DNA of 34,493 nt from a virus. Under the pieces are notes generated by a model. It was given only the letters and a program-made list of their open reading frames with translations, was not told the DNA's origin and ran no database searches. This document shows, one piece after another, positions 2,477-30,877 of this stretch (its first letter is position 1; every line of letters starts with the position of its first letter). The position numbers were made by a program, and so were the translations under genes. Location: positions 1-34,493 of the IMG/VR virus record IMGVR_UViG_3300029319_000212, one strand, 5' to 3'.

Positions 2477-2541
2477 AGCTGACACTGTGCCCAAAGTGTG
2501 GGCGCAAAGTTCGCTCTTGTGCGTGTAGTATCCGATCTTAG
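2473..2541 (+). CDS. Possible zinc-ribbon microprotein (22 aa)
   Basis: A GTG at 2473 overlaps the previous TGA in the GTGA arrangement used elsewhere in this genome. It opens a 22-codon frame containing CPKCGRK and a later CAC, which is a minimal four-cysteine zinc knuckle. It ends eight bases before the next ATG. The coupled start and cysteine spacing are suggestive, but a frame this short can arise by chance. Confidence 0.35.
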   Translation: MKLTLCPKCGRKVRSCACSIRS

Positions 2542-2548
2542 GCACGCA

Positions 2549-3277
2549 ATGATCCATTTTCACGGCACGCCCATCTCTGGCGCAGAAGCGATTGTCAGCA
2601 GGCTGTTACTAAGCCGCTTTGCCTTTGTCAGCTTTGCGCGTCCTGATCAGATGGCTTTAGTTTCTGAAACCACAGCAGGCTTTGCGCTAGACAATGGCGC
2701 GTTTAGTTTCTGGAAGCGTCAGCAAGACATTGATTGGGACTTGTACCGCAGTTGGGTCTTGGAGTGGTACCGGCACCCAGCGTATCAGTTTGCGATCTTA
2801 CCGGATGTGATTGGTGGATCAGAAGAAGAAAACGATGCCCTTTTGCAAGAATACGGCGTACCAGGTGGTGTGCCGGTGTTTCATCAAGGCGAGTCGTTGG
2901 AGCGCCTAGAGCGTCTAGCGGGTCAGTACTCGCGGGTAGCTTTGGGAGCAACCGAAGCGCACATACCCAGCGAAACTTTCTACTCTTGGCTAGATGACTG
3001 TATGACGGTCTTGTGTAACGGTGAAGGCAAGCCGATTGTCCGTATACATGGGCTACGGATGTTGAACCCTGAAATCTTTCAGCGCTATCCGTTCAGTTCT
3101 TGTGACAGCACCAATCTAGGCCAGAACTACAACACGCCAGCTCGCTGGGCAGGGACATACAATCCGGTAGGTCCAGAGATGCGCGGCCTGGTTTTACGAG
3201 ACAGGATTGAGTCATACCAAGCGCCTTGTCGTTTTGAGCCACCACGATACCAACAGATTAGTTTGTTTGCCTCATGA
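2549..3277 (+). CDS. TGT/DpdA-like (deazaguanine transglycosylase fold) protein, tentative
   Basis: 242 aa from the ATG at 2549. In-frame codons upstream overlap the preceding microprotein and lack a better start. Motifs in order: DNGAFSFW (48-55), ILPDVIGG (83-90), a strand VPVFHQGES (108-116), ALGATEAH (131-138), RIHGLRML (165-172) and PFSSCDST (181-188). Alternating hydrophobic strands each ending in Asp, His or Gly suggest a TIM barrel. The D-x-GAF and PD-x-I patterns recall tRNA-guanine transglycosylases and the phage DNA-modifying DpdA enzymes, which swap guanine for 7-deazaguanine derivatives. No queuosine-pathway gene (FolE, QueC, QueD, QueE) is present, so any precursor would be the host's. 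The stop overlaps the large terminase start (ATGA). The gene is certainly real; the fold is a moderate-confidence reading. Confidence 0.55.
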   Translation: MIHFHGTPISGAEAIVSRLLLSRFAFVSFARPDQMALVSETTAGFALDNGAFSFWKRQQDIDWDLYRSWVLEWYRHPAYQFAILPDVIGGSEEENDALLQEYGVPGGVPVFHQGESLERLERLAGQYSRVALGATEAHIPSETFYSWLDDCMTVLCNGEGKPIVRIHGLRMLNPEIFQRYPFSSCDSTNLGQNYNTPARWAGTYNPVGPEMRGLVLRDRIESYQAPCRFEPPRYQQISLFAS

Positions 3278-26682: not shown

Positions 26683-26885
26683 TTGTTGTCAGTGTTGCCA
26701 GTGTGGACAGTAACCGTTTGGCTAGTCTTTGTTGCGCTAAGTTACTGTAATTATTGGTAGCAGAGGGGAGACTTGAACTCCCGACCTTGCGATTATGAAT
26801 CGTAAATCCACAGAGCCGCTAGCCCGCTGACTGTCTAGCTTTGACCGACTGACAACAAGTTGTGTTGCCAATGGATTGACAACAC
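26683..26885. other. attP: attP region with core and five arm-type repeats
   Basis: A tRNA-like core (26755 to about 26804) lies just downstream of the integrase gene. It is flanked by five 9-bp sites of consensus [TG]TGTTG[TC]CA: 26683-26691 and 26692-26700 on the left; 26850-26858 (reverse), 26862-26870 and 26877-26885 (reverse) on the right. The outer sites include a perfect 11-bp inverted repeat (26683-26693 with 26848-26858). Core plus distal repeated sites is the architecture of lambda-type attP, where integrase binds arm sites with its N-terminal domain. No host boundary is in the window, so the crossover point is inferred. Confidence 0.8.
26755..26828 (-). tRNA. tRNA-Met(CAU)-like sequence, 3' half intact (attP core)
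   Basis: Read leftward it has an anticodon stem-loop with CAU (complement at 26795-26797) in a TTCATAA loop. It also has a perfect T-stem (GGGAG 26766-26770 with CTCCC 26778-26782) around TTCAAGT, a 3' acceptor strand CTCTGCT, discriminator A and an encoded CCA. The 5' half is poor: a possible acceptor strand AGCGGGC pairs only with two G-U and one mismatch, and no D-stem forms. It is therefore probably a piece of the host tRNA gene used for integration, not a working phage tRNA. Confidence 0.55.
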
Positions 26886-27961: not shown

Positions 27962-27993
27962 ATTATCGAAACATTTGTGGGGGGGGGGGACAA
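27962..27993 (-). promoter_or_regulatory. Candidate integrase promoter containing an 11-G tract
   Basis: On the minus strand, TTGTCC (27988-27993, -35-like) and GATAAT (27962-27967, -10-like, 5 of 6 to consensus) are separated by 20 bases. Nine of the eleven C's (G's 27979-27989 on the plus strand) lie in that spacer. The predicted start would be within a few bases of the GTG at 27953. A homopolymer between -35 and -10 changes promoter strength when its length slips. Confidence 0.45.
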
Positions 27994-28587: not shown

Positions 28588-28785
28588 ATGAATTTGTTGA
28601 AAGAGTGCCAGTTTTATGGCGTCCGTGTGAGACAGTTAGCCGACGCCAGCGGCTTTACCCAGTCGTATGTACGCCAGGTACTGCTGAATGAACGACGAAA
28701 TGACGAAATCAAACAGTTAGCGCACGCGGCTTTACACAACCGCAAGGAAGAATTGCTAACCGCGCTCTTAAAGGAGTCCGCATGA
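28588..28785 (+). CDS. Cro-like helix-turn-helix protein
   Basis: 65 aa from the ATG at 28588; a TTG two codons upstream is possible. Residues 11-35 (VRVRQLADASGFTQSYVRQVL) form a helix-turn-helix, followed by two short helices. Divergent orientation to the CI-like gene, small size and first place in the rightward early operon fit a Cro-type repressor that shuts off CI. There is no good ribosome site before the start. Its last codons (KESA-stop) contain the ribosome site of the next gene. Confidence 0.72.
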   Translation: MNLLKECQFYGVRVRQLADASGFTQSYVRQVLLNERRNDEIKQLAHAALHNRKEELLTALLKESA

Positions 28786-28982
28786 CTGACCTGTCTGCTG
28801 AACTCGCGGAGATCAAGGCTCTGTTACATGGCCTACGCATGGATGTGAATCATCTGGCGAAGTCTCAAGGGCTGCCGCTGATGACGCATAACTTGAAAGA
28901 GCGTGCGCAGAAACAGCGGTTAGCTGATTTAGAATCAGCTCTAGACTCTGTGCGTAAGGCGCAGAATCTAGGGTACGACTGA
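28782..28982 (+). CDS. Hypothetical early protein (66 aa)
   Basis: 66 aa, helical and charged, with two heptad-like stretches (3-25 and 38-62) that could form a coiled coil. It has an excellent ribosome site (AAGGAG, 28771-28776) inside the preceding gene and an ATGA overlap. No motif beyond the helices is visible and I do not recognise it. Early-operon position suggests a regulator or host-takeover peptide, unproven. Confidence 0.65.
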   Translation: MTDLSAELAEIKALLHGLRMDVNHLAKSQGLPLMTHNLKERAQKQRLADLESALDSVRKAQNLGYD

Positions 28983-29040
28983 CCTCACCGGCCCGCCGAC
29001 GCCGCATCAGCGCCCACCTGTTGAAAGTCGGCCACACACT

Positions 29041-29123
29041 TGGGAAGGAAACACCGTTTTTTATGGGCGGAGGGGTCTGCCCGCAGCTTAACGGTGTGCA
29101 GACATTGAACAGTCGCCTTCCCA
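29041..29123 (+). ncRNA. Structured RNA element upstream of the zinc-finger gene group
   Basis: Three nested perfect or near-perfect helices: TGGGAAGG 29041-29048 with CCTTCCCA 29116-29123 (8 bp); ACACCGTT 29051-29058 with AACGGTGT 29090-29097 (8 bp); and GGGCGGA 29065-29071 with TCTGCCC 29076-29082 (7 bp with one G-U) closed by a GGGG loop. The interval codes for nothing recognisable. The base of the structure is 11 bases before the GGAG of the next gene, so it may be a leader that controls translation or transcription. Being a free small RNA is also possible. Confidence 0.5.
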
Positions 29124-29145
29124 CCACCATACATGGAGTTGCTCA

Positions 29146-29307
29146 ATGACCCGCGTTGAATACCTGTTTGATTTAGAAGTGCAAAGCACAAAGTCCCGCC
29201 TACTTAGACCCGTCAAGCCTTACCAACTACGACGCCTTTACTGGTGGGTCCGCCTGAAGTACCTGACGGTCAAGTGGTGGTGGCGTAACCGCAGGAGGGC
29301 GGTGTGA
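29146..29307 (+). CDS. Hypothetical basic early protein (53 aa)
   Basis: 53 aa with GGAG at 29134-29137 and ATG nine bases later. The composition is striking: many Arg/Lys and six Trp (YWW and KWWW clusters), so it is strongly cationic and amphipathic. It lacks a signal peptide. Its stop overlaps a GTG start (GTGTGA), which couples it to the next zinc-binding gene. Function is not recognised; nucleic-acid or membrane contact is possible from composition. Confidence 0.62.
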   Translation: MTRVEYLFDLEVQSTKSRLLRPVKPYQLRRLYWWVRLKYLTVKWWWRNRRRAV

Positions 29308-29639: not shown

Positions 29640-29887
29640 AGCGCCTGAGTGAGCGTTTGAGTGAGCGGCTGGCACAGCGTGACATGTCACGATTGGCGCT
29701 GGAACCCGCCAGACCAGCCGCTACGCAGCCTACTGGCAAAAACTTGGACATAAGCGTGACATGTCACGATTCAAAACTGCGCTATTGCCCTGGTTGCGAT
29801 AACTACAAAACGCCGAAACCACCACTTTGGGTATTTGGTAGCAAGGTCTGTCGTTTCTGTCAGCGAATGAGCCGCCTTGGCCGGTGA
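29636..29887 (+). CDS. Zinc-finger-like early protein carrying two palindromic DNA elements
   Basis: 83 aa from a TTG at 29636 overlapping the previous stop (TTGA); this choice gives the same coupling seen elsewhere. The N-terminus repeats RLSERLSERLAQR, a basic amphipathic helix. The C-terminus contains YCPGCDNYKTPK and VCRFCQR, a four-cysteine zinc ribbon (C-x2-C...C-x2-C) common in small phage proteins. The DNA holds two copies of a 19-bp palindromic element in different reading frames. The end overlaps the next gene by 11 bases. Confidence 0.68.
   Translation: MKRLSERLSERLAQRDMSRLALEPARPAATQPTGKNLDISVTCHDSKLRYCPGCDNYKTPKPPLWVFGSKVCRFCQRMSRLGR
29676..29771. repeat. Pair of identical 19-bp palindromic elements
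   Basis: AGCGTGACATGTCACGATT occurs at 29676-29694 and 29753-29771, with a perfect 14-bp palindrome CGTGACATGTCACG at its heart (29678-29691 and 29755-29768). The copies are 77 bp apart and lie in different codon phases: the first reads R-D-M-S-R, the second V-T-C-H-D. Conservation is therefore of DNA, not protein. It looks like a binding site for a dimeric protein. Confidence 0.85.
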
Positions 29888-30731
29888 AAAGAATCGAACT
29901 TGCTTCCCAAAGCCCTGCGTCTGGTGTGGGAAGGAGTTTACACCACGGGAAGCCAAGATAAGGCATTGCAGTCGCAAATGTGGCTATCTTAACGTAAGCC
30001 GCGAACAGCGAGCTAGGAAGATGAAACGCTGCGTTCAGTGCGAGCGGATGTTCTATAACAGGAACAGCAACGCTAAGTATTGCAACCAGGACTGCTATTA
30101 CGAAGCCGCAAGGTCTAGGCGCGTCAAGAACTACATGGGCTGGACAGCACAGCAAGTCCAGTGTCCGCACTGTACAGCGTTTTTCACGCAGCGCAGTGTC
30201 AACCATAAATACTGTACGCGGAGCTGCTACAAAGCCATGAAGCGGCACCAGACGTACATCCGTCTGAAGGCCACCAGCCGCACCGAGTGCAAGCACTGCT
30301 TGCAACCGCTGAAGGAACTCGGCCGCGTCTTCTGCAGTAAGAAATGTAGTGACAAGCATAAGTACATCGCCCACCAGATTTATCAAATAAAGTGCGCGAT
30401 TTGTGGGACTGAGTTCAAGACCAAGAAGAAGCACAGACTGCACTGCAGTAAAAGCTGCAGTAACAAGGCGACGAACCGCAAGAAGGCCGATGAAGCCGCC
30501 ATGCGGCAAGAAGCGTATCACAAGCGTGAGGGGCGCTTGCGTGAGACGATGGAAAGGCGGGTCAAGCACAGTAAGATGATGCCACTGGAAACCGCTCATG
30601 CTGATGCGATCAAGGCATTCCTACAGCGTGGTGGCACCATAAAGCAGTTTCAGCCACAGGATGCAGAGCAGGCGAATACCGCTGTACCCGAAAACTTTTG
30701 GTCCTTCGACCAGTACGACCTAGAAATTTAA
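29877..30731 (+). CDS. Protein with five tandem zinc-finger modules
   Basis: 284 aa from TTG 29877, the only start that keeps the first module. Five consecutive modules of pattern C-x2-C-x(10-14)-[HYF]C-x3-C: CVWC...HCSRKC (about 14-35), CVQC...YCNQDC (52-73), CPHC...YCTRSC (95-117), CKHC...FCSKKC (138-158) and CAIC...HCSKSC (173-195). Each repeats a [KR]-x-C-S/T-x-x-C end, like treble-clef or FCS/MYM-type fingers found singly in phage endonucleases and regulators. The modules are spaced about 20-43 residues apart by basic linkers. The C-terminus (196-284) is a charged helix and a short domain. It probably binds DNA or RNA. Other zinc genes lie directly upstream. Confidence 0.75.
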   Translation: MAGEKNRTCFPKPCVWCGKEFTPREAKIRHCSRKCGYLNVSREQRARKMKRCVQCERMFYNRNSNAKYCNQDCYYEAARSRRVKNYMGWTAQQVQCPHCTAFFTQRSVNHKYCTRSCYKAMKRHQTYIRLKATSRTECKHCLQPLKELGRVFCSKKCSDKHKYIAHQIYQIKCAICGTEFKTKKKHRLHCSKSCSNKATNRKKADEAAMRQEAYHKREGRLRETMERRVKHSKMMPLETAHADAIKAFLQRGGTIKQFQPQDAEQANTAVPENFWSFDQYDLEI

Positions 30732-30860
30732 AGCTACCGGCTAAGGTGTTTGTGCGGTCCTCCCACTGGCGTAATCTCACCAGTCAAATCGCACTACTCA
30801 TGTGGCACTGAAGCAATACGCACGAGCATTAGTCTGTCGAGTGCAACGCTGTCGGTAGCT
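30732..30860 (+). ncRNA. Structured intergenic element (branched RNA)
   Basis: It occupies the gap between two genes. The outer helix AGCTACCG (30732-30739) pairs perfectly with CGGTAGCT (30853-30860) and starts on the base after the upstream stop codon. Inner helices: TTGTGCG 30750-30756 with CGCACGA 30819-30825 (7 bp with one G-U), enclosing ACTGG 30765-30769 with CCAGT 30780-30784; and AGC-A-TT 30825-30830 with AA-C-GCT 30845-30850 (one mismatch, shares base 30825). The next ATG (30878) lacks a clear ribosome site, so the element may control its translation. Alternatively it is a processed RNA. Confidence 0.4.
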
Positions 30861-30877
30861 CCGAATTCATCTATTGA

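Follow-up and report, generated by a model that had tools for sequence, protein, structure and literature searches.

A covarying pseudoknot and junction RNA in the early operon of an uncultured temperate phage and its relatives

Temperate phages without a recognised N protein must still express long early operons, and a highly regular hairpin in the early leader of one such phage raises the question of whether it belongs to a working RNA and, if it does, whether this RNA acts on transcription, on translation or in some other way. The window, i.e., the whole stretch of DNA analysed here, comprises positions 1-34,493 of IMG/VR record IMGVR_UViG_3300029319_000212 (34,493 nt), which derives from an uncultured temperate phage. 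The reported hairpin is one half of a larger element, RNA1, which begins upstream at 28983 and runs, 5′ to 3′, from the stop codon of a 66-aa gene through an H-type pseudoknot and a junction closed by helix P1 to the ribosome site of a 53-aa gene (Table 1).

Table 1. Positions of RNA1, its parts, the adjoining genes and the two further structured RNAs (window coordinates unless a relative is named).
Feature	Position	Strand	Remarks
66-aa gene	28782-28982	+	ends where RNA1 starts; the other lineage has unrelated genes there
RNA1, entire element	28983-29145	+	163-nt gap between the 66-aa and 53-aa genes; alignment A6, covariation, covariance model
CCTCACCGG	28983-28991	+	same in 9/9 aligned members; 0 nt past the stop codon TGA (28980-28982) in the window
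Pseudoknot stem S1	28989-29004	+	28989-28992 with 29001-29004
Pseudoknot stem S2	28995-29032	+	28995-29000 (GCCGAC) with 29027-29032 (GTCGGC); 6 bp, 4/6 pairs covary, 100% paired
Pseudoknot loop L3	29007-29026	+	3′ end AAA; the other lineage has one of two longer hairpins instead
P1 and everything enclosed (reported hairpin)	29041-29123	+	closing helix 29041-29048/29116-29123; covaries in relatives
P2	29051-29097	+	29051-29058/29090-29097; CACC/GGTG common to the relatives' module A
P2b	29064-29083	+	29064-29071/29076-29083, loop GGGG; window's version only
P3, third arm of the junction	29101-29114	+	29101-29103/29112-29114, GAC/GTC; weak, 3 bp, from the fold
TACATGGAG, ribosome site of the 53-aa gene	29130-29138	+	same in 10/10 aligned members
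53-aa protein, basic, tryptophan-rich	29146-29307	+	always next 3′ of RNA1; no family match
RNA2, second structured RNA, three-way junction	30733-30859	+	covariation, covariance model
RNA3	L021 6983-7186; L022 6976-7177; L019 6855-7054; L030 4748-4955	-	strong fold

The initial annotation had described three perfectly paired nested helices. P1 and P2 are indeed perfect over 8 bp each, and the inner helix, P2b, is present in the fold with its GGGG loop, but it contains two G-U pairs. Since a small stem that had gone unmentioned, P3, is also present, the hairpin is more accurately regarded as a three-way junction with a closing helix. CACC...GGTGTG and GAC...GTC are common to this module and to module A of the relatives, in which GAC..GTC likewise closes the third arm; the window's module carries P2b as an added tier together with a short third arm. 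In each of the nine distinct members that possess the 5′ half, CCTCACCGG is followed by a 2-nt loop and a 6-nt strand, then directly by GCCGTG or a similar sequence, a variable loop with an A-rich end and a second 6-nt strand. Two crossing helices, which define an H-type pseudoknot, are kept across the relatives; in 9/9 members, the 5′ half of RNA1 is such a pseudoknot, in which loop 1 spans 2 nt and loop 2 is lacking. S1 spans 4 bp in the window and 6 bp in the remaining eight aligned members. As the parts are delimited here, a 6-nt linker joins S2 to the P1 strand, and in the window P1 ends 6 nt 5′ of TACATGGAG; across members, the length of RNA1 is 140-196 nt (start codon included).

Relatives were collected by scanning viral_contigs with the 66-aa, 53-aa and cro-like proteins together with sequence patterns, which yielded a group of 15 virus records, the window included. 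RNA1 occurs in 14 of them (13 whole copies and one clipped by the contig end), whereas the contig of the fifteenth, L013, starts inside the 53-aa gene, too late for RNA1; the 13 whole copies represent 10 distinct sequences. By gene content, the group falls into lineage X (the window, 022198, 009124, 044723, 044512, 021958_000312, 030098 and 037558, with L013) and lineage Y (025151, 021958_007479, 021959, 005512, 034374 and 034418). A covariance model of RNA1 matched 14 of 16 sources at E below 1e-6, the misses being L013, for the reason given, and the HK022 control, and the element is single-copy in each record. Beyond this group, the region, the 111-aa protein, the 53-aa protein and the L030 element gave only short chance pieces in cultured phages, the region gave only such pieces in plasmids, and no prophage in genome_contigs was found to encode a relative.

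Selection on the fold is visible in these relatives. Alignment A6 holds nine distinct sequences; absent from it are the identical elements 044512, 021959 and 034374 (for which 034418 stands in), the cut-off 021958_000312 and 030098, which has no pseudoknot, and the window's 3′ P1 strand is misaligned in it, so that the window's P1 pairs score as gaps or as unpaired. Among the named pairs, 98.5% of cells are paired compared with 86.7% in shuffles (0/500 reaching this value), and two-sided changes occur at 8 of the 23 pairs, in 26 cells versus 8.9 in shuffles (0/500). The further pair types number 10, which is not above shuffles (433/500). Since related sequences inflate counts of pair changes, most weight is placed on the slid controls, in which only 24-43% of cells pair. 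S2 takes four sequences across the members, every one fully paired; P1 takes four among the relatives in addition to the window's own; and S1 is 96.3% paired with one of its six pairs covarying (C-G to U-A in 025151), the window keeping four of the six. The element of 030098 retains P1 and a module in the absence of the pseudoknot, which indicates that the junction domain can stand alone. With respect to strand, shuffle z-scores are better on the plus (sense) strand in nine of the ten distinct members, 037558 being the one that prefers the minus strand; raw energy is lower on the minus strand in several members, and plus-strand P1 holds G-U pairs in four. The structure of RNA1 is kept by compensatory changes, i.e., by selection on the fold, and RNA1 is very probably a working RNA that forms part of an undescribed family. 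The compensatory changes in homologues on which the initial annotation had staked its reading are thus present, at the 8 base pairs given above, and its reading of a structured RNA in the early transcript, lying directly 5′ of a ribosome site and with its pairing under selection, is supported.

The hairpin is also more stable than shuffled sequences: the 81-nt hairpin has z = -4.0, with 1 of 1000 dinucleotide shuffles equally stable, and the 106 nt around it have z = -2.9, with 2 of 200 shuffles as stable. By energy it is not unique, as 15 of 6882 stretches of 86 nt in the window fold at least as well; it is the covariation in relatives, not energy alone, that lifts the hairpin above chance.

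Within RNA1, S1, S2, P1 and the invariant CCTCACCGG and TACATGGAG form a constant frame, in which the tips recombine while the frame itself stays fixed. In lineage Y, the pseudoknot loop is one of two hairpins, a or b, and the junction carries module A or B. All four combinations occur: aB (021958_007479, 021959), aA (034374, 034418), bB (005512) and bA (025151), with frame identity of 83-100% around the exchanged parts; two of the four each rest on one contig, and for these assembly error remains conceivable. Both modules are found in lineage X as well. Module A of 022198 (lineage X) and of 034374 (lineage Y) is identical at 53 of 60 positions, while the 53-aa genes of the same two records match at 95 of 173 (about 55% DNA identity). 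Additionally, a 13-nt GATGAAAGCGGTT loop is kept in 021958, 030098 and 037558 though the surrounding stems differ. A switch pairing the S2 strand CCCAGT with the P1 strand ACTGGG was discarded because only one lineage could form it. Outside the family, the patterns of modules A and B hit two and 13 further stretches in viral_contigs, respectively, all of them frameless and judged by eye to be chance; the module B pattern was poorly built and misses the true members L011 and L020-L022, so its scan says little.

The genes that flank RNA1 behave differently on its two sides. Upstream, an ORF ends 1-5 nt 5′ of CTCACCGG in 9/9 members; the two lineages have unrelated ORFs in this place, and a whole extra gene is present at the RNA1 5′ edge in 009124. 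RNA1 therefore belongs to no single upstream gene, although the tight packing of phage genes may, on its own, explain where its upstream edge lies. Downstream, the 53-aa gene follows in every record showing both; the predicted structure of its protein consists of two helices (pLDDT 78.5, pTM 0.38) and is silent on function. In all members, RNA1 lies 3′ of a cro-like gene and 5′ of the remaining early genes.

The statement that the hairpin occupies the only gap of the early operon was wrong, since there are two real gaps, of 163 and 146 nt, and the second (30732-30877) holds the covarying RNA2. In alignment A8 (eight sequences, without L011 and L013, which were found later by the model), 99.3% of RNA2 cells pair, compared with 80.8% in shuffles (0/500) and 32-56% in slid versions, and 9 of 17 pairs show two-sided changes. 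The covariance model matched 12 of 16 sources, including L011 (E 3e-17) and L013 (E 4e-24) from outside its training set; of the four misses, three are contigs that end short of the site and the fourth is the HK022 control. RNA2 has no Rfam match, starts within a few nucleotides of the upstream stop codon and has neighbours that vary among records on both sides, as expected for an element that works at the level of the transcript. RNA3, a further folded segment about 200 nt long, lies 3′ of RNA2 in the four lineage-Y records that were inspected; searched from L021, it is not in Rfam, the best hit being a below-threshold microRNA model on the opposite strand. The gene preceding RNA2 in the window (29877-30731) encodes a protein of 284 aa, in which CxxC pairs recur and which gives weak HNH and NinG-like matches, and L011 has extra genes inserted between this gene and RNA2.

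Further features were observed elsewhere in the window. CGTGACATGTCACG, a 14-base perfect palindrome, occurs twice within a 100-aa gene (29678-29694 and 29752-29768) and may be an operator or binding site. Adjoining the integrase gene, whose matches are remote only, is a tRNA-Met-like stretch with anticodon CAT (26755-26831, minus strand), without a match in plasmids; as relatives keep just its 3′-end half, it is probably an attachment site in a host tRNA gene. Near the integrase, GTGTGGACAGT at 26701 repeats a piece of module A, is not kept there in relatives and is attributed to chance. A stretch of ten consecutive G residues between the integrase and repressor genes (27980-27989) may be a sequencing or assembly oddity, and a queuine tRNA-ribosyltransferase-like gene (2498-3277; PHROG 887, E 3e-60) lies just 5′ of the large terminase gene.

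Comparison with known RNAs yielded no family for RNA1. Across the whole window, nothing reached the gathering threshold of any of the 4227 families in Rfam release 15; permissive Rfam searches with RNA1 of the window, L012, L030 and L022 gave no matches or matches far below threshold, and searches of open-licence papers for phage structured RNAs, riboswitches and pseudoknot leaders turned up no description of RNA1. An HK022 put-type RNA had been suggested for the hairpin. In PMC9378689, put RNA is described as about 70 nt long with two stem-loops side by side, putR as lying about 270 nt from PR in HK022, and put antitermination as independent of phage proteins and blocked by mutations in the zinc-binding domain of the polymerase beta′ subunit. 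In HK022, putR sits between cro and cII, and it scores 35 against putL (0/500 shuffles). The window element scores 14 and 12 against putR and putL, values reached by 302 and 488 of 500 shuffles, and the best of 16 comparisons involving eight members is 20 (15/500 shuffles), which is not convincing. RNA1, at 163-196 nt, is longer than put, is built as a pseudoknot plus a closed junction, and occurs once per operon beside the unrelated RNA2; its membership of the put family is rejected on both sequence and layout. What the two have in common is that each is a structured early-operon RNA downstream of cro in a phage without a recognised N and, if our guess holds, a nascent RNA acting on polymerase.

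The reading that we favour, with a probability of somewhat more than one in three (about 0.37), is that RNA1 acts in cis in the early rightward transcript, with a put-like action on transcription. RNA1 would fold on the nascent early transcript; once folded, it would bind either the elongating polymerase or a factor that the polymerase carries; and, thus bound, it would let transcription run through the early operon, which is the role of put and nut RNAs in this same position downstream of cro. The exchangeable tips may set which factor or rival gets recognised. The covariation and the plus-strand preference described above point to a functional RNA, its place after a cro-like gene is that of putR in HK022, and its independence of any one upstream gene is consistent with action on the transcript. 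Furthermore, neither a plus-strand terminator-like site near 28983-29145, as an attenuating riboswitch would have, nor an extended complement of the ribosome site was found, which argues against a simple attenuator or trap. However, RNA1 does not resemble put in sequence, the 53-aa gene is its constant downstream neighbour, which better fits a gene leader, intrinsic-terminator-like sites in the early operon are scarcer than in shuffles (five found versus 8.2 expected), and tips exchange in RNA1, whereas we know of no exchangeable tips in put.

That constant downstream neighbour brings in control of translation, a possible if doubtful alternative that ranks close behind a put-like action. RNA1 would here be bound by a repressor or activator, perhaps the 53-aa protein, or by a ligand, and would tune translation of the 53-aa gene and its followers, much as in the leader of T4 gene 32, in which an H-type pseudoknot lies upstream of a phage mRNA ribosome site. 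RNA1 shares this arrangement, its pseudoknot is compact, and P1 stops, in the window, 6 nt before a ribosome site that is the same in all ten aligned members; it differs in having a second domain between the pseudoknot and the ribosome site, and in that none of the libraries searched identifies the 53-aa product as a single-strand binding protein. Sequestration of the ribosome site receives no support, given that no complement of at least 6 bases was found in 10/10 members (the longest being 5 nt), and the same 53-aa protein type accompanies module A or B, i.e., the tips do not track the protein.

The tips are central to a further, unlikely explanation, in which they are targets of a phage-specific trans-acting protein or antisense RNA (of immunity, exclusion or antitermination types) and would be exchanged under frequency-dependent selection. 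The four combinations, the occurrence of A and B in both lineages despite the divergence of the 53-aa genes, and the loop kept amid differing stems are in line with this. Lambda-type nut sites likewise present phage-specific boxB hairpins in a constant context, and RNA1 shares with them this arrangement and the operon position. It differs in that no N was named among the ten proteins scanned here, as the initial annotation had also held, which is weak evidence since N proteins are short and diverse. Speaking against this explanation, no trans partner was found, the module B loop has no second copy or antisense match in 11 records (one mismatch allowed), repressors 79% alike accompany A or B, and the exchange is supported by four sequence combinations only.

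Less probable still is a stable small RNA cut from the early transcript that would act in trans on a host or defence target, with RNA1-RNA3 as three such RNAs. The sharp edges at stop codons, the large compact folds and the changing RNA2 neighbours on both sides fit such a product, yet RNA1 leads straight into a conserved ribosome site and has no known processing site. Finally, short conserved sequences at gene joints may serve gene exchange and be structured only incidentally, which would account for gene exchange exactly at the 5′ edge (the extra gene in 009124) and for frame DNA that is 97-100% alike in parts between one-lineage records with differing neighbours, but compensatory changes between lineages and the strand bias need selection at the RNA level, so that as a full explanation this very improbable reading is largely refuted, while it can coexist with the others.

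In this phage group, two or three RNA structures, strongly conserved and unrelated to one another, thus occupy gene joints of the early operon, and none of them is in Rfam. If RNA1 acts on polymerase, it would represent a novel means of antitermination; action on translation would instead make it a new leader. We also propose, speculatively and as an idea that is itself unlikely, a two-part RNA code, in which a fixed scaffold would engage the machinery of transcription or translation and exchangeable tips would confer a specificity of its own on each phage, with RNA2 and RNA3 as further scaffolds; if true, the phages of this group would recombine RNA tips as they do repressor genes. Tip exchange on a constant scaffold would offer a direct and testable example of how RNA specificity evolves through recombination.
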